A stretch of DNA of 64,000 bases. It comes from a bacterium (lineage in GTDB: Bacteria > Pseudomonadota > Alphaproteobacteria > Acetobacterales > Acetobacteraceae). Below the pieces are notes generated by a model. It was not told where the DNA came from. It saw only the letters and a list, made by a program, of their open reading frames with translations, and did no database searches. This document shows, piece after piece, positions 1,096-57,908 of the stretch. A program made the translations under genes and the position numbers. The DNA lies in NCBI GenBank assembly GCA_026224825.1, contig JAMFRO010000092.1, forward strand, positions 26,880-90,879, in the 5' to 3' direction. The first letter of the stretch is position 1; each line of letters opens with the position of its first letter.

Positions 1096-1155
1096 TAAGA
1101 CAAAAGAAAATAAAATTGCGTTGATTTGCCCCATGTTCGTGAAAGGTTCTGCACG

Positions 1156-4100: not shown

Positions 4101-4419
4101 GGTTGAAGCTCAGCACGGTGACAGTGATAAGGCGCTGATTTATTTAACCGAACTAATGCGGAACCTGAAGTACAGGCGAGATCTTCTCCCGACGCTTGTG
4201 GAGACGTCCACAGCTTTGATGGTTCGCGGTTACGGCGCAGCCGTATTCCAGGCGATACAAGACACTGATACTGCCGAGTATCTGGAGCCTCTTTGTGTCG
4301 CTTTGCAACTGCTCCAGGGAGAAACGCCACTTGTTGCTAAAGAGGTAGAAGAAGTCGCCAATGACATCTTACGGCAAGTTCGTAGCAGAGGCGGCAGTGA
4401 GATGATCGATGAAGATTAA
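1156..4419 (+). CDS. P-loop ATPase with winged helix and C-terminal TPR array
   Basis: A 1,087-residue protein if started at the ATG at 1156 (GAAAGG upstream; the track start at 1126 has no such site). Residues 56-64 hold Walker A (APRGAGKTT). A hydrophobic strand ending IVENVH stands where Walker B is expected. A winged-helix segment of the kind that follows the ATPase core in STAND/AAA regulators lies around residues 300-365. After a lysine-rich linker, the rest (about 485 onward) is roughly a dozen TPR units with recurring AEDAFRRAI-like helices. The architecture suggests a signal-sensing switch ATPase: TPRs bind a ligand and the partner acts. The divergent MBL gene is the obvious partner. 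Base composition is clearly lower in GC than the trb genes, which points to transfer. The function is not established. Confidence 0.8.
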   Translation: MTASGTTSGYKFNPSFQTDSEAIEGFVVRQAEFEAIVETLRANSHAPRNRNILITAPRGAGKTTLVRRILAEIRTIPELANSWHPVFLGEESYTITTPGEFFLECLFHLQDHLQDDRWRLIYEEVEAQRDDATLMSAAIVALKEFAAEQGKRMLLIVENVHMLMCEQIGTGIEVLRRTLNDDPDFMMLATSVKDLADENDEENYLAFVNEYELLQLRPLKLSECQKLWEALTRQEVKRERIRPLQILTGGSPRLLRIMAEFAVAPSLHNLMENLNLLIDQNTEYFKSQLDSLPPIERKVFAALLDIWDPCTAKQVSDSARVNVNVASAMLGRLAERGAVIKLPGKGRAVTYHAAERLFNIYYLMRRRSHPSSRVRALVAFMTQYYRGDELIDTTAKLVAEACSLDPLSREEYHSTFRAIIAQSSQEDRQRILAQTPSDFLSSINVGSELQIANSHDPSNVGEEAMSKKRGNRKEKTKSSGAASTRSDKGISALFKRVTAATDAEDYGEAESLLRAAIADDGSDGLLWLQLTSVLNSAGKGEFEILESAEKAVELLPDNSASHAIYGATLFRYNKDNAQIESHLTQAIELDPTNVMALSIYGDVKHVSRDLDAALDYYRRAWAEVPDSEFALSDVVSVLGPHLGKYDEAEELLKEALKRHPEWRLARNALVDSLARRHSYSEAEKALRDGIKIDKKSSKRWADLGRFLFFKQQRYDDAKRALEQSLKLDRKAPNVWITYARVLEQVDNSFEEALKAANSAIELEPESTEGWLTLGNISGKGGKVSEAEDAFRRAIALNSESARLWYYFGMFLKRQPERIAEAEDAFRNAMKVEDDYPCTVPNELAALLIHRGEDKEAEPYLTRAMEVNSECSCSLNLLGGIAGRARETAKAKNYFEKALEVDPDGIAAMTGLAQLSLENDVDIGLAESLITKAMGIRPRDPQVLLARAFLKRHQNAMNECLDDLRSALDEEADFVEAKVVLASVEAQHGDSDKALIYLTELMRNLKYRRDLLPTLVETSTALMVRGYGAAVFQAIQDTDTAEYLEPLCVALQLLQGETPLVAKEVEEVANDILRQVRSRGGSEMIDED

Positions 4420-5527: not shown

Positions 5528-5869
5528 GTTTAATTAGGAATAAATTATCAATCTCTGAACGAATCGATACAAAAAACTGTTTCGGACATATCTTAAGAAA
5601 ATCGCAACCCACTGAAGGTCGCGAGGGCAAGAAAAATTTGCAAAGTCTTGATTGCGTAGGTGCCGCGCCGAAAGCCGCGCCAACATGACGATAGCGCTAC
5701 TTCCCACTTTTTCAAATCGTACGTGCTCAACCTGCGTCTTTTTCAAGTTTCGGAAAAAGAAGCGTAACGCGTGTTATTTCGGCGTATATAAAGTAGATTT
5801 CTCCGTTCGCCATTTTGTACGATTCTTGTCTCCTAGTTCGAGCGGAGTTTGGTCCGGCGGAGATGCAAA
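5528..5869 (+). promoter_or_regulatory. traG upstream region with a leader segment duplicated at 16307
   Basis: About 340 bp without a convincing gene. The last ~95 bp (from about 5774) contain ATAAAGT, GCCATTTTG and TTGTCTCCTAG in the same order and spacing as the segment before the traG remnant at 16307-16413. This conserved leader probably contains the traG/trb promoter; no strong -35/-10 pair was recognised. A GGAG precedes the chosen traG start. The rest of the stretch holds only the missing upstream part of the PIN gene and nothing recognisable. Confidence 0.5.
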
Positions 5870-7915
5870 ATGACCCCCACGAAGCTGCTCATGGGCCAAA
5901 TTCTACTGGTGTTCGCCATTGTCATCGCTGGTTCCTGTTTTGCGACAGAGTGGTGCGCCTCCCAGCTTGGGTTCCAGTCCCGCTTGGGTATCCCATGGTT
6001 TTCGATTGCGGGCACGCCATTCTATCCGCCATGGCGGCTGTTCGAATGGTGGTATTCCTATGACGCCTATGCGCCGGTGCTGTTCAACGAGGCGGGCGGA
6101 ATCGCGGCATCAAGCGGAATCGCTGGCTGCGCGGTTGCGGTCATCGGCTCTTTATGGAGAGCTCGGCAGAACCGTCTAGTAACTACTTACGGCTCCTCAC
6201 GCTGGGCGACAAAATTGGAAGTCGAGGCTGCTGGTTTATGTCGGCCCGCCGGTGTTTTCTTGGGCCGATTGGGCCATCAGTATCTACGTCATGACGGACC
6301 AGAACATGTCTTGGCCTTTGCGCCGACCCGTTCTGGCAAAGGCGTAGGCCTGGTTGTCCCGACGCTGTTGGCCTGGACGGGCAGCGCAGTTATCCACGAC
6401 ATTAAGGGCGAGAATTGGCAGCTAACCGCCGGTTGGCGGGCAAAGTTCTCGCACTGTCTGCTCTTCAATCCAACCGATCCGCGGTCCGCGCGCTATAACC
6501 CGCTACTAGAAGTGCGCAAGGGCGCGGACGAGGTCCGTGACGTCCAGAATATTGCCGATATTCTGGTTGATCCGGAAGGGGCGCTTGAGCGCCGGTCACA
6601 TTGGGAGAAGACCAGCCACAGTCTGCTCGTTGGCGCGATCCTGCACGTCCTATACGCAGAAGAAGAGAAAACGCTCGCCCATGTCGCGACCTTTCTTTCC
6701 GACCCACAGCGGAGTTTTGCGCAGACGCTGCGCCGCATGATGGACACAAACCACCTTGGCACGCCGGAGCGCCCCTGTGTTCATCCTGTCGTCGCCAGTG
6801 CCGCCCGCGAGGTACTGAACAAATCCGAAAACGAACGCTCGGGCGTACTCAGCACCGCGATGTCATTCTTGGGGCTATACCGTGATCCCACGGTGGCAGC
6901 GGCAACATCCGCCTGTGACTGGCGTATTAGCGATCTGGTCGATACCGAGCGCCCGATCTCGCTTTATCTGGTCATCCCGCCCTCCGACATTTCGCGCACG
7001 AAGCCGCTAGTGCGTCTGGTGCTAAACCAAATCGGTCGCCGCCTGACCGAACGCCTCGAAGGCGACCCCGCCAAGAGCAGCAAGCATCAACTCCTGATGA
7101 TGCTTGACGAATTTCCGGCATTAGGGCGCCTCGACTTCTTCGAGACGGCGCTTGCCTTCATGGCTGGCTACGGCATCCGTGCTTATCTCATTGCCCAGTC
7201 CCTGAATCAGATTTCAAAAGCCTATGGCGAAAACAATGCGATTCTCGACAATTGTCACGTCCGCGTCGCCTTTTCTTCGAATGACGAACGCACGGCCAAA
7301 CGGATTTCTGACGCGCTGGGCACCGCGACCGAATTCAGGGCGATGCGCAACTACGCCGGCCACCGGCTGGCGCCCTGGCTGTCGCACGTAATGGTTTCGC
7401 GCCAGGAGACTGCCCGCCCGCTATTGACGCCAGGCGAGGTGATGCAACTGCCACCCACCGACGAACTGGTGCTCATCTCCGGCCTATCACCGATCCACGC
7501 CAAAAAAATTCGCTACTATGAAGACTCCAATTTCTCGACGCGTTTATTTCCAGCACCGGTGTTGGCGGAGGGCGTCTATCGCGACTGCCCTGCACCGCGC
7601 CCCGATGAGTGGGGCGGGCAGGTGCGGGGTCCCCATATGCGCCTGACCGCGGCAGTCGACGAGGAGGCGGGCGTTTCAGAAGAGGAAGGCGGTCTGCAGC
7701 AACAGCGCCATCCCGGCCTGCCCGAAGAGGATGTCGCCAGGCAGAACGCAGCCGAACATGTCACCGACCTCGGCATTGATGATGACGTAGATGCCGCAGT
7801 CGATGCGCAGGTGATGAAGCGAGCCCCCGGCCTCGGTGCAATCGGGCGTGCCCATGCCATCAACGAGGCAGACCCGCATCGGAATGCCGATCGCGATCTC
7901 TTGCCGGATTTCTGA
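5870..7915 (+). CDS. traG: conjugal transfer coupling protein TraG (VirD4 family)
   Basis: A 681-residue inner-membrane ATPase that brings the relaxase-DNA complex to the type IV secretion channel. The ATG at 5870 is chosen because MTPTKLLMGQ is the usual TraG N-terminus and a GGAG lies just upstream. An N-terminal membrane segment (VFAIVIAGSCF) and a second hydrophobic region are followed by Walker A (APTRSGKGVG, near residue 154) and Walker B (LLMMLDEFPALG). The C-terminal tail includes the common QQQRHPGLPEE segment. It heads the traG-copG-trbB...I transfer operon. The cognate relaxase is not in the window. Confidence 0.95.
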   Translation: MTPTKLLMGQILLVFAIVIAGSCFATEWCASQLGFQSRLGIPWFSIAGTPFYPPWRLFEWWYSYDAYAPVLFNEAGGIAASSGIAGCAVAVIGSLWRARQNRLVTTYGSSRWATKLEVEAAGLCRPAGVFLGRLGHQYLRHDGPEHVLAFAPTRSGKGVGLVVPTLLAWTGSAVIHDIKGENWQLTAGWRAKFSHCLLFNPTDPRSARYNPLLEVRKGADEVRDVQNIADILVDPEGALERRSHWEKTSHSLLVGAILHVLYAEEEKTLAHVATFLSDPQRSFAQTLRRMMDTNHLGTPERPCVHPVVASAAREVLNKSENERSGVLSTAMSFLGLYRDPTVAAATSACDWRISDLVDTERPISLYLVIPPSDISRTKPLVRLVLNQIGRRLTERLEGDPAKSSKHQLLMMLDEFPALGRLDFFETALAFMAGYGIRAYLIAQSLNQISKAYGENNAILDNCHVRVAFSSNDERTAKRISDALGTATEFRAMRNYAGHRLAPWLSHVMVSRQETARPLLTPGEVMQLPPTDELVLISGLSPIHAKKIRYYEDSNFSTRLFPAPVLAEGVYRDCPAPRPDEWGGQVRGPHMRLTAAVDEEAGVSEEEGGLQQQRHPGLPEEDVARQNAAEHVTDLGIDDDVDAAVDAQVMKRAPGLGAIGRAHAINEADPHRNADRDLLPDF

Positions 7916-7926
7916 GGGAGCATGCC

Positions 7927-8370
7927 ATGACAAAGCAAACCAGATGCCGGAACCAGCTCTATCTCGCGGAAGACATCAGCGCGAAGTTGGAGCAACTGGC
8001 AGCCAAACCCGGCGCATCCAAATCGGCAATCCTCTCTGATGCCGTAAAAGCCTGGCTGGCCCGGCGCGGCACCCAGGAACTCGACGATCGCTTCGGCCTC
8101 CGGTTGGACCGGATCACCACGCAGCTTGGCCGCGTCGAGCGCGACCAGCAAATCGTGATGGAAAGCCTTGCCCTCTTTGTCCGCTATTACCTCACCACCA
8201 ACGCACCGCTTCCGGAGCCGGACCAGGCTGCTCGCGCGGTCGGCCGGGATCGCTTCCAGGCATTCATCGATCAGGTCGGGCGCCAGATCGCCGGCGGTGG
8301 CCGCACACTCGGGCGAGCCGACGTTCCGGACGTTCGCCCCAATGCTGCCGGTGCTGGAGCAAGATCATGA
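7927..8370 (+). CDS. CopG-type ribbon-helix-helix protein of the trb cluster
   Basis: A 147-residue protein, 11 bp downstream of traG and overlapping the trbB start by four bases (ATGA). The N-terminus (RNQLYLAEDISAKLEQLA...SKSAILSDAVKAWLARRG) is a ribbon-helix-helix fold of CopG type, and the remainder is a predicted helical extension. The gene occupies the usual place between traG and trbB in alphaproteobacterial elements. It may regulate the operon or assist transfer; its exact target is unknown. Confidence 0.85.
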   Translation: MTKQTRCRNQLYLAEDISAKLEQLAAKPGASKSAILSDAVKAWLARRGTQELDDRFGLRLDRITTQLGRVERDQQIVMESLALFVRYYLTTNAPLPEPDQAARAVGRDRFQAFIDQVGRQIAGGGRTLGRADVPDVRPNAAGAGARS

Positions 8371-9359
8371 GCAGCCAGTCCCATCCTGAAGCGCAAGGCC
8401 GGCGCCGCACGATGCTTCGCACTGCCATGGGGCCGGATATTGCAGCGGCTTTGGCTGATCCCACGATCATAGAAGTCATGGTGAATCCCGACGGCGGCCT
8501 ACGCTTAGACCGCCTCGGCGAAGGACGAATCAATACAACTATAAAATTCGGCGCCGCCGAGGTCGAGCGGATTATCCGCCTCGTTGCCTCGCATGTCCGG
8601 ATCGAGGTCCACGCGGGCAATCCTATCGTCAGCGCCGAATTGCCGCCCCGCGATGAAGGTGTCGCAGGGGAACGCTTCGAGGGCATTTTACCACCGGTGT
8701 CTTTGGCACCATGCTTTACGATCCGTAAGCCCGGAGCACGGGTCTATACGCTCAGCGATTACGTCGCCGACCGCATCATGCTGCCGGATCAGGCGCGCAT
8801 TTTGAGCCAAGCGGTCCTTGATCGCCGCAACCTGCTGATCGTAGGTGGGACCAGCTCTGGCAAGACCACGCTTGCCAACGCCCTGCTTGCCGAAATGGCG
8901 GAGCTTGATGAGCGAGTCATACTGCTGGAAGACACGCGCGAACTACAATGTACCGCGCCCGATTGTGTGGCGCTGCGCACCAAGCCCGGCGTCGTATCGC
9001 TCGCCGATCTGGTGCGCTCGACACTGCGCTTCCGACCGGACCGCATCATCGTCGGCGAAGTCCGTGGGGCCGAAGCTCTCGACATGCTGAAGGCGTGGAA
9101 CACCGGCCACCCCGGCGGAATCGCCACCGTGCACGCCAATTCCGGCCGGGCCGCGCTGTATCGGCTGGAACAGCTGATCCAGGAAGCCGTGGTCACGGTG
9201 CCGCGCCGGCTGATTGCCGAGGCAATCGACATCATTGTCTTCATCCAAGGCCGCGGCGTTGCCCGGCGCATCGACAGCATCAGCGAAGTCACCGGCCTCA
9301 ATGCCGATGGCGATTACGCCGTCACCGATCTCAATCCCCACCGACTCCACACCCCCTAG
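8367..9359 (+). CDS. trbB: conjugal transfer ATPase TrbB (VirB11 family)
   Basis: A 330-residue hexameric traffic ATPase of the type IV secretion system, acting at the cytoplasmic face to power pilus assembly and substrate transfer. Walker A is GGTSSGKTT (residues 160-168), and the ILLEDTREL and HPGGIATVHANS segments match the Asp-box and His-box of the VirB11/PulE family. The length is normal. It is translationally coupled to the copG-like gene by a four-base overlap. Confidence 0.95.
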   Translation: MSSQSHPEAQGRRRTMLRTAMGPDIAAALADPTIIEVMVNPDGGLRLDRLGEGRINTTIKFGAAEVERIIRLVASHVRIEVHAGNPIVSAELPPRDEGVAGERFEGILPPVSLAPCFTIRKPGARVYTLSDYVADRIMLPDQARILSQAVLDRRNLLIVGGTSSGKTTLANALLAEMAELDERVILLEDTRELQCTAPDCVALRTKPGVVSLADLVRSTLRFRPDRIIVGEVRGAEALDMLKAWNTGHPGGIATVHANSGRAALYRLEQLIQEAVVTVPRRLIAEAIDIIVFIQGRGVARRIDSISEVTGLNADGDYAVTDLNPHRLHTP

Positions 9360-9387
9360 AATCTCTGACCATCAGAAAGGACACGCC

Positions 9388-9726
9388 ATGCCTTTTTCTT
9401 CATCCCGTTTGCCCCGCCGCATCCTGCGCCGTCTCGCGCCGAGTGCCGCGATGCTGCCTCTGTTCTGCGGCACCGCCTATGCCGCAGGCTCGAACATGCC
9501 GTGGGAACAGCCCCTGCAGCAGATCCTCGATTCCGTGCAGGGGCCGGTCGCCAAGATCGTCGCCGTGCTGATCATCATCGTCACCGGCCTGTCGCTCGCC
9601 TTTGGCGAAACCAGCGGCGGCTTCCGTCGCCTGATCCAGATCGTCTTCGGCCTCAGCATCGCTTTTGCCGCTTCCAGCTTCTTTCTATCATTCTTCAGTT
9701 TCGGCGGCGGAGCGCTCGTCCAGTGA
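9388..9726 (+). CDS. trbC: conjugative pilin TrbC (VirB2 family)
   Basis: A 112-residue prepilin. The ATG at 9388 has AGAAAGG upstream; the longer track ORF starts inside trbB. An arginine-rich signal sequence ends near GTAYAAGS. Two hydrophobic segments follow (IVAVLIIIVTGLSLAFG and IVFGLSIAFAASSFFLSFF), the standard two-helix VirB2 layout. The small mature protein would form the conjugative pilus. Confidence 0.9.
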   Translation: MPFSSSRLPRRILRRLAPSAAMLPLFCGTAYAAGSNMPWEQPLQQILDSVQGPVAKIVAVLIIIVTGLSLAFGETSGGFRRLIQIVFGLSIAFAASSFFLSFFSFGGGALVQ

Positions 9727-9986
9727 GCGTCCATATCGAAGGCTTCGAAGCGCCGCTACATCGCGCCCTGACCGAGCCCATTTTGCTGGGCGGTTCGCCA
9801 CGCGGCATCGCCATCGTCAACGGTACGCTGGCCGCGGCGCTCGGGCTGGGTTTGCAGATGTGGCTGGCCGGACTTTTATTCTGGGTCATCGGTCACACGC
9901 TCAGCGTCTTCGCGGCAAAGCGTGAGCCCGATTTTGCGCCGGTGCTGGCCCGACATCTCCGCCAACGAGGATGGCTCGCATGCTGA
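9723..9986 (+). CDS. trbD: conjugal transfer protein TrbD (VirB3 family)
   Basis: An 87-residue membrane protein starting at GTG (9723), overlapping the trbC stop by four bases. MSVHIEGFEAPLHRALTEP followed by GGSPRGIAIVNG is the typical TrbD N-terminus, with two hydrophobic segments in the middle. It assembles with TrbE in the inner membrane. The ORF track lists this frame only from an earlier, unlikely start at 9501. Confidence 0.9.
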   Translation: MSVHIEGFEAPLHRALTEPILLGGSPRGIAIVNGTLAAALGLGLQMWLAGLLFWVIGHTLSVFAAKREPDFAPVLARHLRQRGWLAC

Positions 9987-12451
9987 ATCTCTCCGAATAT
10001 CGTGCGACCGCCGACCGGCTGGCTGATCATCTGCCCTGGGCGGCACTCGTCGCCCCCGGCGTTGTTTTGAACAAGGACGGCAGTTTCCAGCGCACATTGC
10101 GTTTCCGCGGACCCGATCTGGAAAGTGCCACCGAAGCCGAGCTGGTAAGTGCCTGTGCCCGACTCAACAACGTGCTGCGCCGCTTCGGCTCCGGCTGGGC
10201 GTTGTTTTTCGAAGCCGAACGCTTTGAAGCGCCAGGTTATCCCAAATCGGCGTTCCCGGACGCAGCGTCATGGCTGGTGGATGAGGAACGGCGTTCGAGT
10301 TTCGAGCATCACCAGGCGAACGGGAAGAGTTCCGTTTGGCAGAGCCCACAGGGTGCGGCCGCAGCACAAGTTTATTTCGAGAGCGCGTATTACCTCACTC
10401 TTTTATATATGTCGCCGGGCGATCAGGTCGCCCGCGCGGAACAGGCGCTACTCGAACGGGCCGAGGCTGAGAAGGGCAGGGACTGGCGGCAAGACCTCGC
10501 GGCCTTCGTCGCTGAATCGGAACGGGTGCGCGATCTGCTGACCGGCTTCATGCCCGAGGTCGAGGCGCTCGACGATACCGGGACGCTGACCTATCTGCAC
10601 GGCACGATCTCGGGCCAGCGGCATAGGATCGAAGCACCTGAGACACCGCTCTATCTTGACGCCATCCTGGCCGACACGCCGTTGAGCGGCGGTATTGAGC
10701 CCATGCTTGGTGACCAGCATCTGCGCAGCGTCACCGTACTGGGTTTCCCGAATTTCACGCAACCAGGGATTCTCGACACCCTCAACCATCAGGATTTCGC
10801 CTATCGTTGGATGACCCGTTTTATCGCGCTGGATAAAACCGAGGCGACGAGAACGCTGACAAAACTCCGGCGCCAATGGTTTAACAAACGCAAATCCATC
10901 ACGGCGCTGCTGCGCGAGGTGATGTATAGTCAGCCCGTCCAACTTCTCGATTCCGATGCTGACAATAAAATGCTGGATGCGGATCTGGCACTCCAGGCGC
11001 TCGGTGGCGATCACGTGGCCTTTGGCTACCTCACCACCACCATCACGGTCATGGATTCAGACCGACTCCGCGCCGAGGAAAAGCGCCGGGCTGTCGAACG
11101 TGTCGTCAATAGTGCGGGCTTCACCTGTATTCGTGAAAGCATCAATGCGGTTGAGGCATGGCTAGGCTCGTTGCCTGGCCATGCCTACGCGAACGTCCGC
11201 CAGCCCATCGTCCACACGCTGAACCTCGCCCATCTCGTCCCGCTCTCTTCGGTCTGGGCCGGGCCCGCGCGCAATGATCATCTGAACGGCCCGCCTCTGC
11301 TTTACGGCCAGACCAGCGGCTCTACCCCGTTCCGCTTCTCGACCCATGTTGGGGATGTCGGACACATGCTGATCGTCGGCCCAACGGGTGCTGGAAAATC
11401 GGTGCTGCTGGCGCTGCTCGCGCTGCAATTCCGCCGCTACACCGGGTCGCAAATCTACATCTTCGACAAGGGTTTCTCGGCCCGCGCCGCGGTTCTGGCG
11501 ATGGGTGGAGAACACCATGCCCTTGGCGCGGATGGCTCGCTCGCCTTCCAACCATTGCGAGGCATTGATGATCCGGCTGAACGCAGCTGGGCAGCCGAAT
11601 GGATTTCTGCGCTGCTGGCGCACGAGAAGGTCGACGTCACACCGGAGGTGAAGGAGGCGGTCTGGTCAGCACTGAGCAGCCTCGCCTCCGCACCGCCTGA
11701 AGAGCGGACGCTGACCGGCCTGTCCGTTCTGCTGCAATCGAACGCCATCAAAACGGCATTGATGCCATACACATTGGACGGCCCTTTTGGCCGCCTGCTC
11801 GATGCTGCAGAGAACCGCCTCGACCTGGCAGACATGCAATGCTTCGAGACCGAGGAGCTGATGCACGAAGCCAGCGCGGTCCCGCCGGTGCTGACCTATC
11901 TCTTCCATCGGCTTGAGGAGCGGTTCACCGGACGGCCGACCCTCCTGATCCTCGACGAGGCCTGGGTGTTCCTTGACAACCCGCTCTTCGCCGCGCGCAT
12001 CCGCGAATGGCTGAAAGTCTTGCGCAAGAAAAATGTCGCGGTGGTGTTTGCCACACAATCTCTCGCCGACATCGCCGATAGCACCATTGCACCGGCTATC
12101 ATAGAGTCCTGCCCGCAACGCATTTTCCTGCCGAACGACCGTGCGATCGAACCACAAGCCCGCGCCGCCTATGAGCGCTTCGGGCTGAATGAGCGCCAGA
12201 TCGAGCTGATCGCGCGCGCCACCCCCAAGCGGCAGTATTATCTGCAATCCCGCCGTGGCAACCGCCTGCTCGAGTTGGGGCTCGGACCCATCGCGCTCGC
12301 CCTTTGCGGCGCGTCATCTCCAGCCGATCAGCAGCGCATCGATACGGCTCTCGCGGAATACGGTGCCGGCGGATTTCTCGCGGGCCTGCTTGATGGCGCT
12401 GGTCTGGAATGGGCTGCGGATCTGCTCGCTTTTTATCACAGCAAGGAATAG
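9980..12451 (+). CDS. trbE: conjugal transfer ATPase TrbE (VirB4 family)
   Basis: An 823-residue ATPase, the largest energy-providing component of the channel. The second ATG (9980) is preferred because AACGAGG lies nine bases before it but abuts the first ATG at 9971. Walker A is IVGPTGAGKS and Walker B is LLILDEAWVF, with the VVFATQS motif following. It overlaps the end of trbD. The family length is matched and no internal damage is seen. Confidence 0.95.
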   Translation: MLNLSEYRATADRLADHLPWAALVAPGVVLNKDGSFQRTLRFRGPDLESATEAELVSACARLNNVLRRFGSGWALFFEAERFEAPGYPKSAFPDAASWLVDEERRSSFEHHQANGKSSVWQSPQGAAAAQVYFESAYYLTLLYMSPGDQVARAEQALLERAEAEKGRDWRQDLAAFVAESERVRDLLTGFMPEVEALDDTGTLTYLHGTISGQRHRIEAPETPLYLDAILADTPLSGGIEPMLGDQHLRSVTVLGFPNFTQPGILDTLNHQDFAYRWMTRFIALDKTEATRTLTKLRRQWFNKRKSITALLREVMYSQPVQLLDSDADNKMLDADLALQALGGDHVAFGYLTTTITVMDSDRLRAEEKRRAVERVVNSAGFTCIRESINAVEAWLGSLPGHAYANVRQPIVHTLNLAHLVPLSSVWAGPARNDHLNGPPLLYGQTSGSTPFRFSTHVGDVGHMLIVGPTGAGKSVLLALLALQFRRYTGSQIYIFDKGFSARAAVLAMGGEHHALGADGSLAFQPLRGIDDPAERSWAAEWISALLAHEKVDVTPEVKEAVWSALSSLASAPPEERTLTGLSVLLQSNAIKTALMPYTLDGPFGRLLDAAENRLDLADMQCFETEELMHEASAVPPVLTYLFHRLEERFTGRPTLLILDEAWVFLDNPLFAARIREWLKVLRKKNVAVVFATQSLADIADSTIAPAIIESCPQRIFLPNDRAIEPQARAAYERFGLNERQIELIARATPKRQYYLQSRRGNRLLELGLGPIALALCGASSPADQQRIDTALAEYGAGGFLAGLLDGAGLEWAADLLAFYHSKE

Positions 12452-12455
12452 CTCC

Positions 12456-13181
12456 ATGAAACTTCAAACGCGCAGGGCGGCCCTGACCGCCATCGCTATT
12501 ATTATCGCTGCTCCACTTGTCATGCCCTGGCATGCTGATGCGCAGGTTGCAGTCATTGATGCCGCAAATCTAACCCAGAATATTTTGACGGCGGCGAGGG
12601 AGCTTCAGCAGATCAACAACGAGGTCCAGTCGCTGCAAAATCAGGCGACAATGCTGGAGAACCAGGCAAAGAACCTGACCAGCCTGAACTTCTCGTCGCT
12701 CGATGGCATCACAAACGATCTCCAGCAGATCAGCAATCTGATGAACCAGGCACAGGGAATAGATTTCGATGTTCAATCGGTTGAGACAGCCTTTCAACAA
12801 GCTTATCCCCAACAATACGCCGCAGGCACAAGTTTTCCACAACTCCTGACGGACGCCCAAACGCGCTGGCAGAATTCACGGGATGCGTTTCAGCAGACCA
12901 TGACTGTGCAGTCGCAGATCGCGCAAACGGTGCAGACCGACACCGGCAAGCTCGCCGATCTCGTCGATGCCAGCCAGAGCGCGGTTGGCAACCTGCAAGC
13001 CCAACAGGCAACGAACCAGCTTCTCGCCCTTTCGATCAAGCAGCAGCTTCAAATCCAGACGATGATGGCAACGCAGGGTCGCGCCGAGGCGTTGAACGAC
13101 GCCAACAACGCCGAGTCCGAGGCGGAAGGCAGTGCTGCTTTCTCCACCTTCCTCGGCAGCAGCAACGCTTACGCCCCTTAA
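12456..13181 (+). CDS. trbJ: conjugal transfer protein TrbJ (VirB5 family)
   Basis: A 241-residue exported protein that starts four bases after trbE. A signal peptide (AALTAIAIIIAAPLVMPWHADA) precedes a coiled-coil-rich helical body (repeated QINNEVQSLQNQATMLENQ). It is a minor pilus component of the VirB5 type. The last ~50 codons (LSIKQQ to SSNAYAP) are repeated at 16560-16740 with a few substitutions, flanking the AbiEi/HipA insert. The expected next gene, trbL, lies 3.6 kb away, and no trbK-like entry-exclusion gene is seen. Confidence 0.93.
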   Translation: MKLQTRRAALTAIAIIIAAPLVMPWHADAQVAVIDAANLTQNILTAARELQQINNEVQSLQNQATMLENQAKNLTSLNFSSLDGITNDLQQISNLMNQAQGIDFDVQSVETAFQQAYPQQYAAGTSFPQLLTDAQTRWQNSRDAFQQTMTVQSQIAQTVQTDTGKLADLVDASQSAVGNLQAQQATNQLLALSIKQQLQIQTMMATQGRAEALNDANNAESEAEGSAAFSTFLGSSNAYAP

Positions 13182-13248
13182 CAATAGCACCAACCATCAT
13201 CTCCAGTTCCGTCTCGACTAAAGGAAATGCGGATCGTCGAGCGCGAGA

Positions 13249-14124
13249 TCAGGCTTTGACATTAAGCGATAGCATCCAATTTTCTGAGTATATTGGGGCG
13301 TATGGATTCTCAGGGTCGAGTTTTTGTGAGCTGCCACGCTGCGCGAATTTGCGCCAATCTAATACTCGTTCGTCTGTAACACCCAAAACTTCGTCCAAAA
13401 TATACCCCGCGCGGACCTTTGGAAGTTTTGCCTCGTGCTCATTTACGGCATCGATGATTTCATCGAGGTAGTCGTTGGCCTTTCTCCGCCAGACTTTGAG
13501 AACATTAGAAATACCACCGCACCAAGATGGGCGCACAACCATATCCAAAAAAATTTGTCCGGGTGTTGCTACCCGGCCGTATGGGGCCATGGTGCCCCAC
13601 TTGCCAGGATAAATCGTGTCATGGACAAGTATCGATCTTAATCGAACCTTTTCGGGAAAACGATATCTTGGGCGCTGGTAAGGGGCGGGCTCAATTGGAG
13701 TAGGTGTCTTGCTTTCTCTTAGATGCCACATTTCCCTCCACAGCTTGGATGCCGGGCGTGTGAGCATTAAGGTTTTGGAGCTTTGCTCGGTAAGACCCCT
13801 GAAGCGCATTGCAGACAAGTGCGAGATATATACAAATGGATCGGCTAAACAGCAGGTTGCTTCGGCATCTTGCTCAAAAACGCCGAGAACCTCATAATGT
13901 GTAGAACAGAAATCGCGATCTGGGCGAACGATCTTCGCCGCTTGGAGGCGTTTAATGACTCTCGAGATGTCTTGATCGACGACTGGTTTTGAGGCGGACG
14001 GCTTTCTGCTGGATTTTGAATGCTCTCCCGCGAGCACTCTTCGTACGAGGCGTTCCAAATCGCTCGCTGCGATAATTGAGGCATTTTGTTGTGTCAGGAT
14101 TTGACGAATAAGCGTCTTGGTCAT
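13249..14124 (-). CDS. AbiEi-like winged-helix protein, candidate antitoxin/regulator
   Basis: A 291-residue protein on the strand opposite to the trb genes. The track start is a TTG at 14130; the ATG at 14124 is preferred. The N-terminal ~75 residues look like a winged helix (ISRVIKRLQAAKIVRPDRD). The following segment (PFVYISHLSAMRFRGLTEQ, then TLMLTRP) is the signature of AbiEi-type antitoxin domains, in which 'SHLSAL..HGLT' is conserved. In classical AbiE loci the partner is an AbiEii nucleotidyltransferase, but none is present here. The divergent neighbour is a HipA-type kinase with a similar N-terminal domain. Lower GC than trb supports acquisition as cargo. The role as antitoxin or repressor is inferred. 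Confidence 0.65.
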   Translation of the reverse strand: MTKTLIRQILTQQNASIIAASDLERLVRRVLAGEHSKSSRKPSASKPVVDQDISRVIKRLQAAKIVRPDRDFCSTHYEVLGVFEQDAEATCCLADPFVYISHLSAMRFRGLTEQSSKTLMLTRPASKLWREMWHLRESKTPTPIEPAPYQRPRYRFPEKVRLRSILVHDTIYPGKWGTMAPYGRVATPGQIFLDMVVRPSWCGGISNVLKVWRRKANDYLDEIIDAVNEHEAKLPKVRAGYILDEVLGVTDERVLDWRKFAQRGSSQKLDPENPYAPIYSENWMLSLNVKA

Positions 14125-14175
14125 TTGCAACCCGCATTTTCATGGTTTGAGGGAGAACCAATGCAATATTTGGGA

Positions 14176-14222
14176 GCATAGGATAGATTTAATGTCCTAA
14201 GGACATTAAATCTATCCTATGC
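14176..14222. promoter_or_regulatory. 47-bp perfect palindrome upstream of the AbiEi-like gene
   Basis: Arms of 23 bp (14176-14198 and 14200-14222) are perfectly complementary around a single A, with the core ATGTCCT-A-AGGACAT. The palindrome starts about 50 bp upstream of the AbiEi-like start codon. Odd spacing and perfect symmetry suggest binding of a dimer or tetramer, most likely the product of one of the flanking genes. It could also act as a cruciform or RNA hairpin in the leader. Confidence 0.65.
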
Positions 14223-14305
14223 GTATGTCTATAGGCGAAGCGTTCTTTTTAAAAATTCTTTATTTATCAACAAGTTGAATTTGATGCAGGCAAGGAAAAC
14301 GGCCC

Positions 14306-14407
14306 AAAATATAACTATCCCGTACTTCAAGTGCGGGATAGTTATATTTTTCTTGAATTTGGTGCCACATAATACTAACTATCCCGTACTTCAGGTACGG
14401 AAAAGTT
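14306..14407. promoter_or_regulatory. two copies of a palindromic operator before the HipA-type gene
   Basis: The first copy (14306-14350) has 22-bp arms around a C with one mismatch (AACTATCCCGTACTT / AAGTGCGGGATAGTT). The second (14377-14407) repeats AACTATCCCGTACTTCA but has a decayed right arm (AGGTACGGAAAAGTT). The second ends three bases before the TTG start at 14411, so protein bound there would block transcription or translation initiation. Autoregulation by the encoded module is the simplest reading. Confidence 0.6.
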
Positions 14408-14410: not shown

Positions 14411-16249
14411 TTGGCACTTCACTTGATCGGCGACACGCTGGATAAGACCCGCAGTCATTATCGTGCTGGGACGGGGCAATTAATCCAGCTTATGCGCGGA
14501 ATTTATGTGGACTCAGACGACGATATTGACGCCGTCATCATGAAGCATGCTGTGCGCATTGCCAAATATCTTTATCCGCAAGCGTATCTCTCGGCAGCTT
14601 CAGCTGTGTTGCTTGGCCCGACCCAGGACGGTCGGTTATTTTTGAGTGCGAGACGCAAGCAGCGTACCCGCATTCGTTCCCTGGAAATTATCCAGAATCA
14701 AGCGCCGCTACATCCATCGGTGGGTGCAGCTATTGTTGATGATGGCATGGGTGAGTTCCGCATAAATGCTTCATCGATCCGCCAGCGCTTCCTGGAGGCG
14801 TTCCGAATTCGCAGTGAACATGCGGCGGCTATTGATGAAGAAATGCGAAAGGCGATCGCAATTCGCTTGAGCGAGGAATATGGGAGTCCGCACGCGGCAG
14901 CCGACGCTATTTGGGTCCTGGCTCGAGAGAACGAATGGTACCGCGAAGGAGAAGCCGCTGAGCGTTATTTACGCCGCACTCCCACTGTAGGATTGGTAAA
15001 AAACCGGGCTGCTTTCGATTTGATCGTCGCGTGGCACGGAAGACCGATCGGCCAGCTAAATCATGATGGCTTCGAATGGCGGTGGAACGCTATCAAAGAA
15101 AATGGCCCGGCACTCATAAGGCAAACCACCCCCGGAAAGCTTCCTCCGTTCATAGTATCGCTAATGCCGGAGGGGTGGCTGGAATCTGTGCTAAAAAATG
15201 CAGACGAGCGTACCCAACTCAAATCGGGTAAGCGCTATATGTCAAACGTCACGATTGTTGAGCAGCAAAGCGAGCTTGCGACTTTACCAGAAGATATATT
15301 GATCACGCGCCTTCTAGACTACGATAAAGATGGCACGTTCACGGGTCGTTACGCGGGGCCAGGTCGAGATCTTATGGATCATAATTTCGAGCGTAATCTT
15401 GCGAGCATTTATCAAAATGCAGAGACACCAAGGCTATCTGGCATTCAAATCAAAGCGCCCATGTACCTGGATGTCCACGGAGTGCTATCCCCAAGCACAG
15501 ATAAGCCTTTCACGCACATCCTAAAGCCAGCTGGTACGAGTGGATTCGATTTTCTTCCCATTATAGAATGGTTGGACATGTCGCTAGGGCGGGCCATCGG
15601 TTTCGATGTGCCGGCAGCCGTTCTCATTAAAATGCCCGATGGAATGCCCCCAGCATTGCTGGTAGAACGCTTTGATATACGTGAAGGACGTAATGACAAG
15701 CGTATGCTGGCATTGGAAGATTTTTGCTCAGTTCTCGATCTCTCAACGGCCGAAAAATACACTGGAACGATGGAACGTGTCGCGCGTGCGGTAAGATCAC
15801 TTTCGACCTCACCGGAAGAAGATTTGCTGATCCTCGTGAAACGGGCGCTTTTCGCTTGGTTGGTTGCGGATGGCGACATGCATCTCAAGAATATGGCTCT
15901 TCTGAAAACTGCTGAACCAGGCGACAAGACGTTTCGAACTGTCCGAGTGGCGCCTCTTTATGACTCGGTCACGACACGCGTATTTCCGGGACTGCAGCAT
16001 GATCGAATGGCTCTAAAATTGAATGGAAAAGATGAAAGACTACGTCGAGCGGATTTTCGGGCCCTCGCCAAAATCGCCGGTTTAAGTGTGACGGATACGG
16101 ATAACGCTATTGACGAGATGCTTGAGCGCATGAGGGCAGCGGTTGATGAGATCGTGCTTCCGCCAGACCTAGACTATGCAGACGAGGCCGCAAGACAAGT
16201 TGAACGGGTACTCGAAATCTGCCGTAACAGGCTAAATTCATTTAAGTAA
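14411..16249 (+). CDS. HipA-type Ser/Thr kinase with AbiEi-like N-terminal domain
   Basis: A 612-residue protein, well above the usual ~440 of HipA. It starts at TTG; no ATG or GTG lies between the upstream stop and this codon. Residues 1-100 resemble an AbiEi-type winged helix plus its companion domain (LIQLMRGIYVD, then AYLSAASAVLLG). Residues about 200-256 match the HipA N-subdomain (VAWHGRPIGQLNHDG ... SLMPEGW). The kinase core follows: SGIQIKAP (343-350), THILKP with the ATP-binding lysine near 372, the catalytic loop DGDMHLKN (487-494) and the metal-binding APLYDSVT (D518). All key kinase residues appear present, so it should be active. HipA kinases phosphorylate translation factors such as GltX and cause growth arrest. 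No HipB (Xre-type) gene is present, so the fused domain or the divergent gene may neutralise it. Confidence 0.8.
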   Translation: MALHLIGDTLDKTRSHYRAGTGQLIQLMRGIYVDSDDDIDAVIMKHAVRIAKYLYPQAYLSAASAVLLGPTQDGRLFLSARRKQRTRIRSLEIIQNQAPLHPSVGAAIVDDGMGEFRINASSIRQRFLEAFRIRSEHAAAIDEEMRKAIAIRLSEEYGSPHAAADAIWVLARENEWYREGEAAERYLRRTPTVGLVKNRAAFDLIVAWHGRPIGQLNHDGFEWRWNAIKENGPALIRQTTPGKLPPFIVSLMPEGWLESVLKNADERTQLKSGKRYMSNVTIVEQQSELATLPEDILITRLLDYDKDGTFTGRYAGPGRDLMDHNFERNLASIYQNAETPRLSGIQIKAPMYLDVHGVLSPSTDKPFTHILKPAGTSGFDFLPIIEWLDMSLGRAIGFDVPAAVLIKMPDGMPPALLVERFDIREGRNDKRMLALEDFCSVLDLSTAEKYTGTMERVARAVRSLSTSPEEDLLILVKRALFAWLVADGDMHLKNMALLKTAEPGDKTFRTVRVAPLYDSVTTRVFPGLQHDRMALKLNGKDERLRRADFRALAKIAGLSVTDTDNAIDEMLERMRAAVDEIVLPPDLDYADEAARQVERVLEICRNRLNSFK

Positions 16250-16306: not shown

Positions 16307-16413
16307 ACCCGCTTGTTTCAGCGTAGATAAAGTGACTGTTTCTTTTGGCCATTTTGCACGAGTCCTGTCTCCTAGAGTGCGCGCGCCATTCGCGCCTTTT
16401 CGGAGAGCGGTAG
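16307..16413 (+). repeat. second copy of the traG leader
   Basis: ATAAAGT, GCCATTTTG and TGTCTCCTAG appear in the same order and spacing as at 5774-5868 upstream of traG, with scattered substitutions. It is followed by a GGAGAGCGG ribosome-binding site and the first codons of a traG-like gene. It may still act as a promoter driving trbL-trbI after the insertion. Confidence 0.7.
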
Positions 16414-16740
16414 ATGATCCCCACCCGTTTGCTAGAGGCAGCCTTGCAACGGCCTTGTCCCAAACACTGCGCTGAGGTGGGGAGTTTTCGACAGCTGCCG
16501 ATCGATATCGCAGCTACCGACAGAACACGAGGGGCAGCTTTCAGCAAACCGTGTCCAGCCCAGCAGGGGACGCACCAACTCGTCGCCCTCTCGATCAAGC
16601 AACAGCGCCTGATCCAGACGATGATGGCAACGCAGGGCCGCGCAGAGGCGCTGAACGATGCCAACAACGCAGAGTCTAAAGCGGAAGGCGGTGCCGCCTT
16701 TTCGACCTTCCTCGGTAGTAGCAACGCCTACACCCCTTAG
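16414..16740 (+). pseudogene. chimeric remnant: traG start joined to the trbJ 3' end
   Basis: The frame opens MIPTRLLEAA, matching the start of TraG (MTPTKLL), then becomes unrecognisable. It ends in LSIKQQRLIQTMMATQGRAEAL to SSNAYTP, an almost exact repeat of the TrbJ C-terminus. A short FQQTVSS-like stretch in another frame before it matches an earlier part of TrbJ, so a further internal deletion is likely. This is what remains if traG to trbJ of a second element copy was deleted. The ORF could be expressed but would lack the TrbJ signal peptide and body. Confidence 0.8.
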
Positions 16741-16790
16741 CATAGCGGCGAACGTCAACCGGGCCACCACGAGAAGGACGCGAGGACGAT

Positions 16791-18110
16791 ATGGATAATC
16801 TCAATATCATTGACCAGTTCATGCAGATTTTCAGCCGCTATATCGACAGCGGATTCGGCCTGCTGAACGGTGACGTGGTTGGTCTCACCTCGATCCTCAT
16901 CGGTATCGACATCACGTTGGCCGGCCTGTTCTGGGCGCTAGACCACGAGGGCGATGTACTCGCCCGCCTGATTAAGAAAGTGCTCTACGTCGGCGTCTTC
17001 GCCTACATTATCGATAACTTCCAGAACCTCGCCACCATCATCTTTAACTCCTTTTCGACCATGGGGCTGAACGCCACCGCAACGGGGCTGACAGCCGCCG
17101 ATCTGCTGTTGCCGGGCAAACTCGCCAGCACTGGGTTCACAGCGGCCTATCCGCTGTTGCAGCAAGCCGGCTCACTGATCGGTTTGACCACCTTCGTCAC
17201 ACATTTCGTGACCATCGTGGTGCTGCTCATCGCCTGGTTCATCGTCATCATCTCATTCTTCATCCTGGCGGTGCAGCTTTTCATCACCGTGCTCGAATAC
17301 AAGCTGACGACACTTGCGGGCTTCGTGCTGGTGCCCTTCGCCCTGTGGAACAAGACCTCATTCCTGGCTGAGCGTGTGCTCGGCAATGTCGTGTCCTCGG
17401 GTGTGAAGGTGATGGTGCTGGCCGTCATCATCGGGATCGGCAGCACATTGTTCAGCACATTTACCGGTGCCGCCCAGGGGCAGGAGCCCAGCCTGGCCGA
17501 AGCCATGTCGTTGGTACTCGCGGCAATAACCCTGCTGGGGCTTGGCATCTTTGGCCCTGCCATCGCCACTGGACTCGTCGCTGGGGCGCCGCAGCTTGGC
17601 GCAGGTGCGGCGATCGGCACGGTAGGTGCTGCGGCCGGCGCCATGATGCTGACCGGTGCCGCCGCCGTGGGCGGCGCACGCTTGCTCGGAGGCGCCGGTG
17701 CCGGCGGCCTCGCCGCGATCCGCGCCGGCACCGCGATGGGTACGGCCACATCGACTGCCTATGGGCAGGGGCAGGCGTCCTCTGGCGCCTCCGGAATGGC
17801 AGGTGTTGCCGCAGGACTTGGAGGTGTGGCGCGTGCTGGCGGAGGCGCCGTTATGCAAGGTGCTCGTTCCGTTGGTCAGCGCGCCGGCAGCTCTCTTGCA
17901 GGGAGCTCTCAGTCTGCACGGCATGCCGCAGGTGGTGGCACGCCATCGGCTGCTCAGCCGGACGGCAACGGCGCAGCACCCGCCTGGGCGCGCCAGCTGC
18001 AAACCGCGCAGCGCGCACGTCATCAGCGCCAGGCCACGGCCCAGGCCGTCAAGGAAGGCGACCGTCCCGGCGCGCCGGCCAATCCCGAACTCGACGGAGG
18101 GGAGACATAA
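16791..18110 (+). CDS. trbL: conjugal transfer protein TrbL (VirB6 family)
   Basis: A 439-residue polytopic inner-membrane protein of the channel. The N-terminal ~270 residues contain about six hydrophobic segments (for example ILIGIDITLAGLFWAL, LLIAWFIVIISFFILAVQLF). The C-terminal ~150 residues are Ala/Gly/Ser/Gln-rich and low-complexity, as usual for this family. The start has AAGGACGCGAGGA upstream. It lies just beyond the trbJ remnant, so normal trbJ-trbL adjacency is restored at the sequence level. Confidence 0.93.
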   Translation: MDNLNIIDQFMQIFSRYIDSGFGLLNGDVVGLTSILIGIDITLAGLFWALDHEGDVLARLIKKVLYVGVFAYIIDNFQNLATIIFNSFSTMGLNATATGLTAADLLLPGKLASTGFTAAYPLLQQAGSLIGLTTFVTHFVTIVVLLIAWFIVIISFFILAVQLFITVLEYKLTTLAGFVLVPFALWNKTSFLAERVLGNVVSSGVKVMVLAVIIGIGSTLFSTFTGAAQGQEPSLAEAMSLVLAAITLLGLGIFGPAIATGLVAGAPQLGAGAAIGTVGAAAGAMMLTGAAAVGGARLLGGAGAGGLAAIRAGTAMGTATSTAYGQGQASSGASGMAGVAAGLGGVARAGGGAVMQGARSVGQRAGSSLAGSSQSARHAAGGGTPSAAQPDGNGAAPAWARQLQTAQRARHQRQATAQAVKEGDRPGAPANPELDGGET

Positions 18111-18115: not shown

Positions 18116-18814
18116 ATGATTTTCAAACGTACTCTGCAACGCTACGGCCGCACGCCGGAGCCGACCACGCCGTACCAGCGTGCTGGGCAGCTTTGGGACG
18201 AGCGCATCGGCTCCGCCCGCGTCCAGGCGCGGAACTGGCGCCTCATGGCATTTGGCTGCCTGATGTTATCGGGCGGGTTGGTCACCGGCCTCATCTGGCA
18301 ATCGGCGAAAAGCCGCGTCATCCCCTTTGTCGTAGAGGTGAATAGCCTTGGTCAGGCCCAGGCGGTCGCGCCTGCGGTCCAAGACTACCAGCCAACAGAC
18401 GCACAGATCGCCTGGTTCCTGGCGCATTTCATCACCGATGTGCGGGCACTTCCCACGGACCCCGTGCTGGTGCGCAAGAATTGGCTGGAGGCATATGAGT
18501 TCGCGACGAGTCACGGGGCTGTTTTCCTCGATGGCTACGCCGGCACCAACGATCCGTTCAAAGCAATCGGTGACCGCAGCGTCTCGGTGGATGTCACCAG
18601 CGTCGTGCGTGCGTCAGACAGCTCCTTCCAGGTCAAATGGACCGAACAGGCCTACCGGCAGGACAGCCTTGTCTCGACCGAGAACTGGACCGCTATCCTC
18701 ACCATCGCGATCAAGCCACCAGCAACGGCGGAGGTCCTGCGGGAGAACCCGCTCGGCCTCTACGTCGATGGCATTGCCTGGTCGCGCGAATTTGACCCCG
18801 GTTCCACCCCATAA
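18116..18814 (+). CDS. trbF: conjugal transfer protein TrbF (VirB8 family)
   Basis: A 232-residue bitopic inner-membrane protein. A cytoplasmic N-terminus (PYQRAGQLWDERIGSARVQARNWR) precedes one membrane helix (LMAFGCLMLSGGLVTGLIW) and a periplasmic NTF2-like VirB8 domain. It follows trbL by five bases with a strong GGAGGGGAG site. VirB8 proteins nucleate assembly of the channel. Confidence 0.93.
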   Translation: MIFKRTLQRYGRTPEPTTPYQRAGQLWDERIGSARVQARNWRLMAFGCLMLSGGLVTGLIWQSAKSRVIPFVVEVNSLGQAQAVAPAVQDYQPTDAQIAWFLAHFITDVRALPTDPVLVRKNWLEAYEFATSHGAVFLDGYAGTNDPFKAIGDRSVSVDVTSVVRASDSSFQVKWTEQAYRQDSLVSTENWTAILTIAIKPPATAEVLRENPLGLYVDGIAWSREFDPGSTP

Positions 18815-18826
18815 AAGGAGACCGTC

Positions 18827-19822
18827 ATGCGTAATATCCGAAGCATTTTACTCATATCCTTTCCCGCTCTGGCATTGGCCGCTTGCGGGGGCAACACGCC
18901 GCCACCTGCCATCACCTATGACAGTGGCGATTTTAAGCCGGCGGTTGTTCAGCCCGCCCCGCCGAAACCGGTGCAGATCGTCACCGTGCCAGAGCCGTTA
19001 CCGCTCCCCGGCCAGCTCATGCCTCCGCCGTCTACGATGGGCGCCCAGGATAATTCCTCCCCGACACAGCGCGTCGATACGGCCAACCACGTGGCGCTGC
19101 AGGAGCCGACCAAGTACGGCTACGTGAACGCCATCCAAGTCTACCCCTTTACCGAAGGTGCGCTGTATCGGCTCTATGCCGCACCAGAGCAGGTGACGGA
19201 CGTTGCCTTGCAGCCCGGCGAAAAACTTCTTTCTGTCGCGGCCGGCGATACCGTCCGCTGGGTGGTCGGCAATACCACGAGCGGAACCGCCATCGCGGCG
19301 CAGGTGCACATCCTGGTCAAACCCTTCGCGCCGGGCCTCACCACCAACCTGGTCATCATGACCGACCGGCGCAGCTATCATCTTGAACTGGACAGCACAG
19401 ATCATACCTCGATGGCAGCCATCTCCTGGACCTATCCCGACGATCAGCTCCTTGTGCTGCAGCAACAAAATAGCGAGGCCGATGCCGCTGCGCCGATCGC
19501 CGACAATCTCGCGCTCGGAGACCTGCATTTCCGCTACGCGATCACTGGTGATGATCCGGCATGGCGACCGGTGCGCGCCTTCGATGACGGCAGCAAGGTC
19601 TACATAGAATTTCCCGATCGCATCAATCAGGGCGAAGCGCCTCCGCTCTTCGTGGTCGGGCCGCAAGGCGACGATCAACTCGTCAACTACCGCGTCCGCG
19701 ACAACTACTACGTTGTCGACACGCTTTTCGCGGCGGCAGAGTTGCGGCTCGGAGAGAAACCGCAGCAGGTCGTGCGCATCAACCGTACTGATACGGCATC
19801 TGCAACCGGCACCGGCGGGTAG
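18827..19822 (+). CDS. trbG: conjugal transfer lipoprotein TrbG (VirB9 family)
   Basis: A 331-residue exported protein with a lipobox (LALAACGG) near residue 20 and a proline-rich spacer. The body has features of the VirB9/CagX family: KYGYVNAIQVYPFTEGALYRLYAAPEQVTDVALQPGE, then the C-terminal NYRVRDNYYVVDTLF. It forms the outer-membrane core complex with TrbI. It is 12 bp downstream of trbF. Confidence 0.93.
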   Translation: MRNIRSILLISFPALALAACGGNTPPPAITYDSGDFKPAVVQPAPPKPVQIVTVPEPLPLPGQLMPPPSTMGAQDNSSPTQRVDTANHVALQEPTKYGYVNAIQVYPFTEGALYRLYAAPEQVTDVALQPGEKLLSVAAGDTVRWVVGNTTSGTAIAAQVHILVKPFAPGLTTNLVIMTDRRSYHLELDSTDHTSMAAISWTYPDDQLLVLQQQNSEADAAAPIADNLALGDLHFRYAITGDDPAWRPVRAFDDGSKVYIEFPDRINQGEAPPLFVVGPQGDDQLVNYRVRDNYYVVDTLFAAAELRLGEKPQQVVRINRTDTASATGTGG

Positions 19823-19833
19823 GGGGGAGTCCC

Positions 19834-21069
19834 ATGAGTGGTTCTATCCCTCCGAAACTCGATCCGGAAACCCTGGTACTGAAGGGCACCCCGCGCCGCG
19901 TTGTCAGGTTCAAGCGTAACCTTCTCATTGCCATTGCGGCCATCGGCTGCGTCTCAGTAGCAGGAATCACTTGGGTGGCGCTTAAGAGTTCGAATTTGCA
20001 TGCCAATATCGGCGGCGACAATCTCTACAACACCAGTAATAACCCCACGCCGGACGGCCTTGCCGGCTTGCCCAGCAATTACGGCCAGATCCCTCAACCC
20101 AAGGCCGTGCCGCAACTGGGGCCGCCATTGCCAGGCGACCTCGGGCCGCCAATTGTGGAACGTGAGAAGGAGCTCGGGCTTAACCCGGCCGGACCCAGTA
20201 CAGAGGATGAAGCCGCCCGTGCCGAGCGGCTTCGTATCGCTCAGCAGGCGCAGCAGGCGAGCGAAGCCGGCGTATTCTTCCAGCTCAACCAGCAGGGCGG
20301 CGGTGCGTCGACCATATCTGCGCTGGCCGGAAGCGCTGCGTCCGACGTGTCAGCATCCGCAGCATCGAAAGTCGGAGATGCCGCTCATCTCGGTCTTGAT
20401 TTGGCAAATGATCAGAATGACCAGCAGCGCAAACTTGATGTCGTCAACCAAGCATCGGCCGATGGCACCTACAACGACCATGCGCTTGAAACGCCGGCTT
20501 CACCTGATGAAGTGCTCGCCGGTACAGTCATCGCCGCCAGCCTGATCACAGGCTTGAATTCCGACCTGCCCGGCGAGGTGACCGCCCAGGTGACGGAAAA
20601 TATCTACGACACCGTTACTGGTAGGGTTTTGCTTATCCCGCAGGGATCGCGGCTGATCGGCAGCTACGACAGCGTCGTCGCCTTCGGCCAAAGCCGCGCA
20701 TTGCTCGTCTGGCAGCGCATCGTCATGCCGGACGGCTCGTCGATTCAGATCGACAACCTGCCAGCAACCGACGCCGCGGGTTATACCGGACTGAAAGACC
20801 ATGTCGATTACCACACCTGGACGCTGCTCAAGGGCATCGCGATGTCCACACTCCTTGGTGTCGGCACCGAGACTACGTTCGGTAGCAGCCAGAGCGACCT
20901 CGTGCAGGCGATCGAGCAGTCTGCCCAACAAAGCACAGACCAAGCCGGGCAACGGATCGTCGAAAAGGACCTCAACATCCAGCCGACCATCACCGTCCGT
21001 CCCGGTTGGCCGCTACGCGTTATCGTTTCCAAGGATCTCGTGCTTCGGCCCTACCAAGGGCAGGATTGA
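19834..21069 (+). CDS. trbI: conjugal transfer protein TrbI (VirB10 family)
   Basis: A 411-residue protein that spans the periplasm and joins the inner-membrane ATPases to the outer-membrane pore. One membrane helix near residues 31-48 (LLIAIAAIGCVSVAGITW) is followed by a proline-rich region and the TrbI/VirB10 beta-domain (VLAGTVIAASLITGLNSDLPG, IPQGSRLIGSYDSVVAFGQ). It ends IVSKDLVLRPYQGQD. Last of the Trb channel genes. Confidence 0.95.
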   Translation: MSGSIPPKLDPETLVLKGTPRRVVRFKRNLLIAIAAIGCVSVAGITWVALKSSNLHANIGGDNLYNTSNNPTPDGLAGLPSNYGQIPQPKAVPQLGPPLPGDLGPPIVEREKELGLNPAGPSTEDEAARAERLRIAQQAQQASEAGVFFQLNQQGGGASTISALAGSAASDVSASAASKVGDAAHLGLDLANDQNDQQRKLDVVNQASADGTYNDHALETPASPDEVLAGTVIAASLITGLNSDLPGEVTAQVTENIYDTVTGRVLLIPQGSRLIGSYDSVVAFGQSRALLVWQRIVMPDGSSIQIDNLPATDAAGYTGLKDHVDYHTWTLLKGIAMSTLLGVGTETTFGSSQSDLVQAIEQSAQQSTDQAGQRIVEKDLNIQPTITVRPGWPLRVIVSKDLVLRPYQGQD

Positions 21070-48029: not shown

Positions 48030-48256
48030 GGGTGGGTTTTAGGGGAAAAAGGCTGGGGCTCTGCCCTGGACCCGCTGGGGCCTGAGGCCCCAGACCCCCG
48101 CTACTTAAGACTTAAAAAAGAGGCCTGCGACTATGCTGTTTGAAACAGCACGGAGGCAGGCCTCTTTTTTAAGTCTTCAACTAATGGGGTCTGGGCCTCA
48201 GGCCCAGCGGGGTCAGGGGCGGAGCCCCAGCCTTTTTCCCTTAAAACCCACCCTCA
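48028..48256. repeat. long nested palindrome, copy with inner stem 1
   Basis: Outer arms run from GAGGGTGGGTTTTAGGGG to its complement CCCTTAAAACCCACCCTC. Inside are the shell hairpins GGGGCCTGAGGCCCC and TGGGCCTCAGGCCCA. The centre is a perfect 22-bp stem (48107-48128 with 48156-48177) that itself encloses TGCTGTTTGAAACAGCA. It lies between two convergent genes, overlaps both ends and can work as a bidirectional terminator. Confidence 0.75.
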
Positions 48257-57615: not shown

Positions 57616-57817
57616 GGAAAAAGGCCAGGGCTCTGCCCTGGACCCGCTGGGGCCTGAGGCCCCAGACCCCCGATACTACGGGAGTGAGGTGGGACGGTGT
57701 ACGGCCTAAGCGGGCCGTACACCGTCCCACCTCACTCCCGTAAAAGTAATGGGGGTTTGGGGCCTCAGGCCCCAATGGGGTCAAGGGGCAAAACCCCTTG
57801 GTCTTTCTTCCTTGTCC
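57613..57817. repeat. long nested palindrome, copy with inner stem 2
   Basis: The left arm GGCCAGGGCTCTGCCCTGG, CCGCTGGGGCCTGAGGCCCC and CAGACCCCC are nearly identical to those of the 48,028 copy. The right side has GGGGCCTCAGGCCCC and a weaker outer arm. The core is a perfect 30-bp stem (57677-57706 with 57713-57742) around TAAGCG, unrelated in sequence to the other cores. It separates coxC from the SURF1 gene and starts at the coxC stop. Confidence 0.75.
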
Positions 57818-57908
57818 GGCCCCAACGGCAGCGAAACTGACGGCGGGGTAAATGGCACAAGCTCGCAGAGAGCCGCACAGATTGCCGCCCCGGGGGACCC
57901 CACCTAAG

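Follow-up and report, generated by a model that had tools for sequence, protein, structure and literature searches.

The closest described counterparts of the transfer genes considered here are the traG-trb operons of alphaproteobacterial ICEs (from Mesorhizobium, Sphingomonadales and Acidiphilium iwatense, L117), which have the same gene order as the window, by which we mean the whole 64,000-nucleotide stretch of DNA analysed, which comes from an acetic-acid-bacteria relative, and whose TrbE proteins show 71-84% identity to that encoded in it. None of these operons, however, has the 3.6-kb separation of trbJ from trbL or the second trbJ end found in the window. Two toxin-antitoxin families are relevant to the genes within this separation. 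The first is the AbiE type IV system, of which the window holds the AbiEi protein and an operator-like palindrome with the core ATGTCCTNAGGACAT, but not the AbiEii nucleotidyltransferase that overlaps AbiEi. The second is HipH (YjjJ), which represents one-gene Hip kinases with an N-terminal extension of ~100 aa and is recognised as a monocistronic kinase of clade X of the Hip tree with an N-terminal HTH (PMC8262856). The hipA-like gene in the window is likewise a one-gene HipA_C kinase, N-terminally extended and without a partner antitoxin gene, although its extension is ~200 aa; by layout it is a candidate member of this family.

The trb operon and its interruption

Taking the best 80 TrbE matches among genome contigs as our sample of relatives, we found the order traG-trbB-trbE-trbJ-trbL-trbF-trbG-trbI to be common to these and to the window, where the P-type (trb) transfer operon is interrupted once, between trbJ and trbL (Table 1). 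All 76 operons of this sample in which both genes were found have a trbJ-trbL gap of 0-183 bp; in the window the intact trbJ lies 3.6 kb from trbL, while a remnant trbJ stands at the typical spacing of 51 bp. The intact traG-trbJ and trbL-trbI blocks make up one complete operon split by ~3.6 kb. The same contig also has a match to a relaxase profile that exceeds the cut-off, ~17 kb upstream of traG, and the relaxase and the trb operon probably share one element. The G+C content of the insert is 49-51%, compared with 61-62% for the flanking trb genes. Duplicated traG or trb genes were seen in none of the 80 relatives, and the host genome holds no further trbJ beyond the two matches in the window. 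Neither plasmids nor 397 genomes of the order yielded a closer relative, and viral contigs contained no relative.

Table 1. Coordinates, strands and supporting evidence for the features of the divided operon and its insert (positions in the window).
Feature	Position	Strand	Evidence
traG leader, copy 1	5774..5836	+	L056, L059 and L117 have like sequence in this position
traG (coupling protein), intact	5870..7915	+	Pfam T4SS-DNA_transf, E 1e-102
trbB	8367..9359	+	Pfam T2SSE
trbE	9971..12451	+	Pfam CagE_TrbE_VirB
trbJ, intact copy (J1)	12456..13181	+	NCBIfam PRK13874 TrbJ, E 2e-81, over cut-off
trbJ 3' end, repeat copy 1	12998..13188	+	repeat match to 16557-16746
Filler of unknown origin, left junction	13182..13256	.	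no convincing match in relatives, plasmids or genomes
abiEi, orphan antitoxin; AbiEii cut after ATGTC	13249..14130	-	PADLOC AbiEi, E 4e-81
49-bp palindrome, likely abiEi operator	14175..14223	.	core as in L137, L138, L139
hipA distal operator-like palindrome	14306..14350	.	paired palindromes in window and 10 homologs
hipA proximal operator-like palindrome, at start codon	14376..14412	.	paired palindromes in homologs
hipA-like kinase gene, 612 aa, TTG start, intact	14411..16249	+	Pfam HipA_C, E 6e-39
traG leader, copy 2 (remnant)	16313..16375	+	match to 5774-5836
Second traG, first 7 codons (MIPTRLL)	16414..16434	+	aligned to traG starts of relatives
Second trbJ, decayed middle part	16435..16553	+	aligns with trbJ 12783-12902, small indels
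Second trbJ (J2), 3' end	16557..16740	+	TrbJ profile match, E 6e-13
trbL	16791..18110	+	Pfam TrbL, E 6e-50
trbF, trbG, trbI	18116..21069	+	tblastn, order as in relatives

The second traG-trbJ copy beside trbL

The first-pass annotation had proposed that ~50 codons of the trbJ end occur on both sides of the abiEi and hipA genes, with a diverged traG leader and the codons MIPTRLL ahead of the second copy. Comparison of the window with itself, which had been suggested as a check, recovered both the trbJ-end and the traG-leader repeats, and the only other long direct repeats in the window are unrelated. The last 190 bp of trbJ recur on the far side of the insert with 83% identity (E 1e-52), so that the repeat itself is confirmed, while its extent is 61 codons rather than ~50. 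The two leaders are identical at 49 of 63 positions (78%, E 1e-8), and the sequence that follows the second, ATGATCCCCACCCGTTTGCT, agrees with how traG begins in relatives, L064 for instance having ATGACCCCGACCCGTTTTCT. Newly seen in this analysis is a decayed middle part of trbJ inside the remnant, the alignment of which to the intact gene scores 78, compared with a maximum of 56.5 in 1000 shuffles and a best score of 48.5 for other 541-bp blocks of the window. The remnant is laid out as the leader, 7-8 traG codons, the decayed trbJ middle, a gap and an intact trbJ end, and is a traG-trbJ block that has lost a large internal part and some smaller ones.

The manner in which the two trbJ ends have diverged is informative about their past. 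Their amino-acid identity is 86.7% over the 60 codons compared, and the differences between them in the last 61 codons fall 6/4/22 on first, second and third codon positions (P 5e-5 for at least 22 of 32 at third positions). Over this short test region of 61 codons dN is 0.06 and dS 0.92, the latter being of the same order as the dS from J1 to L117 (0.90), to L057 (1.0) and to L059 (1.1). The low dN and the preponderance of third-position differences indicate that the copies diverged while both were functional, and their divergence as working genes seems to have lasted about as long as that of separate elements of the group. The trbJ tree pairs J1 with J2 to the exclusion of every other sampled sequence (support 0.91); J2 has the longer branch of the two, which loss of its function would lead one to expect. 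The trees for traG-trbB-trbE and for trbL-trbI both place the window as sister to A. iwatense L117, and since the two flanking blocks are placed alike, a hybrid joint is invisible from the flanking genes at this sampling; the trees did not separate the two halves.

A TCCTG-type motif occurs ~50 bp ahead of traG in many relatives and is also carried by the leader; we take this motif to resemble the RP4-type oriT nick core. Scans of the leader with the sigma-70 consensus found no promoter. The kept leader may help to transcribe trbL-trbI, the alternatives being transcription from hipA or by read-through. That the duplicated leader is more than debris, being a candidate nick site or operon promoter that either mediated the joining of elements or was retained to drive trbL-trbI, strikes us as quite unlikely.

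The abiEi and hipA genes and their position

The two genes of the insert had been described together as toxin cargo; that they form one module is contradicted by the lack of AbiEii beside AbiEi and of AbiEi beside the relatives of HipA. In the homologs examined, AbiEii begins within the end of AbiEi, at AATGTCTGA; the window has AATGTC at this point followed by unrelated sequence, such that the toxin gene stops after five bases, and AbiEii was not found in the window. A reading of the filler as the surviving start of abiEii (MSKPDLALDDPHFL) was ruled out, given that the homologs have just ATGTC in common, and the 75-bp filler gave chance-level short matches alone when compared with relatives, plasmids and 195 genomes. 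AbiEi is an orphan antitoxin, the partner toxin of which was lost at the left junction. Near-perfect palindromes of 47-49 bp with the same core as that in the window lie upstream of abiEi in L137, L138 and L139, which suggests that the antitoxin retains its probable operator despite the loss of the toxin.

The hipA-like gene is intact and encodes a one-gene Hip kinase, which in other places is carried on its own. The catalytic motifs of HipA_C are present, with GDMHLKN and other kinase motifs being invariant across 11 homologs. Two palindromes ~65 bp apart, the second at the start codon, are found in the window and in L135, L136, L165-L168 and L172-L175, and the occurrence of such pairs in all of these homologs suggests that the gene represses itself. 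Full-length relatives with ~59-68% identity occur on plasmids as well as in six further genomes of the family, and no AbiEi was found in their compared flanks. A HipB helix-turn-helix antitoxin gene neither adjoins hipA in the window nor is annotated next to the plasmid homologs examined; a small helix-turn-helix-like ORF lies near the L005 homolog. An origin of the N-terminal extension from AbiEi was also considered and is unsupported by profile comparison, the profiles being shallow. The insert is, on these comparisons, made up of two unrelated leftovers and passengers rather than a single toxin module, and it illustrates that adjacent toxin-antitoxin genes in a conjugative element need not form a system, here pairing a broken AbiE remnant with a lone Hip kinase. 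Elsewhere, a HipA-like relative (L169-L170, G169:C140) is located on a contig with a trb operon, ~28 kb upstream of traG.

It had also been suggested that the position upstream of traG is a cargo slot, and this is borne out in so far as the site is variable within the clade. In L056 it is occupied by an RND efflux pump, in L059 by IrrE-like and other genes, and in L117 by MFS transporter and GMC oxidoreductase genes; the window has a TPR ATPase there, accompanied by PIN and DUF736-like pieces, the DUF736 call being made by eye. Neither AbiEi nor HipA was seen directly upstream of traG in any of the relatives searched. The window ATPase (1126-4419) is a protein of 1097 aa with an AAA ATPase and TPR repeats.

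A few other trb operons also hold cargo, although this is uncommon. In Sphingomonas L128 helix-turn-helix and HipA_C genes (12569-13899) stand between trbE and trbJ together with a hydrolase gene, a similarly sized insert being present at this place in L123, and in Brevundimonas L096 and L103 traG and trbB lie 2.1 kb apart, the L103 interval holding a hydrolase gene. The Sphingomonas operon also harbours Hip genes but is an independent case, differing from the window in the Hip gene concerned (the window HipA gave no tblastn match there), in its position and in having no trb duplication.

Origin of the divided operon

We consider it likely that the broken second operon part is the scar of two related elements recombining, with the spare copy then being deleted. 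The recombining partners would have been related ICEs or plasmids that share one traG-trb lineage, element A supplying traG-trbJ (5870-13181) and element B, which is not sampled, supplying a stretch in which abiEi and hipA directly preceded the traG leader of B, such that the join point would be the end of the trbJ of A and the first bases of the abiEii of B. Illegitimate recombination between about codon 8 of traG and mid-trbJ may then have removed the redundant traG-trbJ of B, so that what stayed beside trbL would be the leader together with a few traG codons and the end of trbJ. The normal spacing of the remnant trbJ from trbL supports this sequence of events, and the selection-shaped divergence of the trbJ ends favours recombination of two related elements over local duplication. 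The repeat and leader identities, the decayed trbJ middle, the truncation of AbiEii where it overlaps AbiEi and the unrelated genes ahead of traG in L056, L059, L117 and the window also speak for it. Counting against it are the failure to find any element with AbiEi or HipA directly upstream of traG, the status of J1 and J2 as closest relatives among those sampled, the like placement of both flanking blocks in the trees, the shortness of the test region and a filler with no known source.

The first-pass annotation left the choice between recombination and tandem duplication, each followed by deletion of traG-trbJ, and of these the recombination and deletion agree with our data, while a recent tandem duplication is disfavoured, given a dS of ~0.9. 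Duplication of traG-trbJ within one element, with cargo then inserted between the copies and one copy deleted, would account for J1 and J2 being sisters and for the two leaders matching one another better (0.78) than they match any relative (0.65-0.70). We nevertheless regard it as unlikely, because the high dS and low dN imply that both copies were long functional, as in separate elements, whereas a spare copy is expected to change at all codon positions, and the relatives have no duplicated trb genes. A fragment of another element, already bearing the traG-trbJ deletion, could also have been captured at the trbJ-trbL junction through homology at the trbJ end on one side and end joining on the other, with trbL-trbI being resident, and the non-homologous, filler-bearing left junction, the homology of the right side to the resident trbJ and the like placement of both flanking blocks in the trees would all fit. 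This route requires a donor with a transfer operon broken in such a way, none of which was seen among the relatives, and seems distinctly improbable. As the genome is a draft of 108 contigs, a mis-assembly fusing two elements from the same or a contaminating genome also has to be weighed, but an internally deleted, decayed remnant and a cut AbiEii are unlike the false join of intact contigs, and the host genome, with just these two trbJ matches, argues against a fusion of two operons, so we give this explanation very little credence.

If two elements did recombine as we propose, the process is ordinary mosaic evolution, unusually well preserved, and the locus can be read as a fossil of conjugative elements turning hybrid while one transfer operon keeps working. 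Recombination between the J1 and J2 ends is predicted to excise 3.56 kb and so to restore the usual trbJ-trbL junction. Elsewhere in the window, a dispersed intergenic inverted-repeat element occurs at 47969-48310, 57606-57821 and 63787-63828, its copies being ~80-95% alike.
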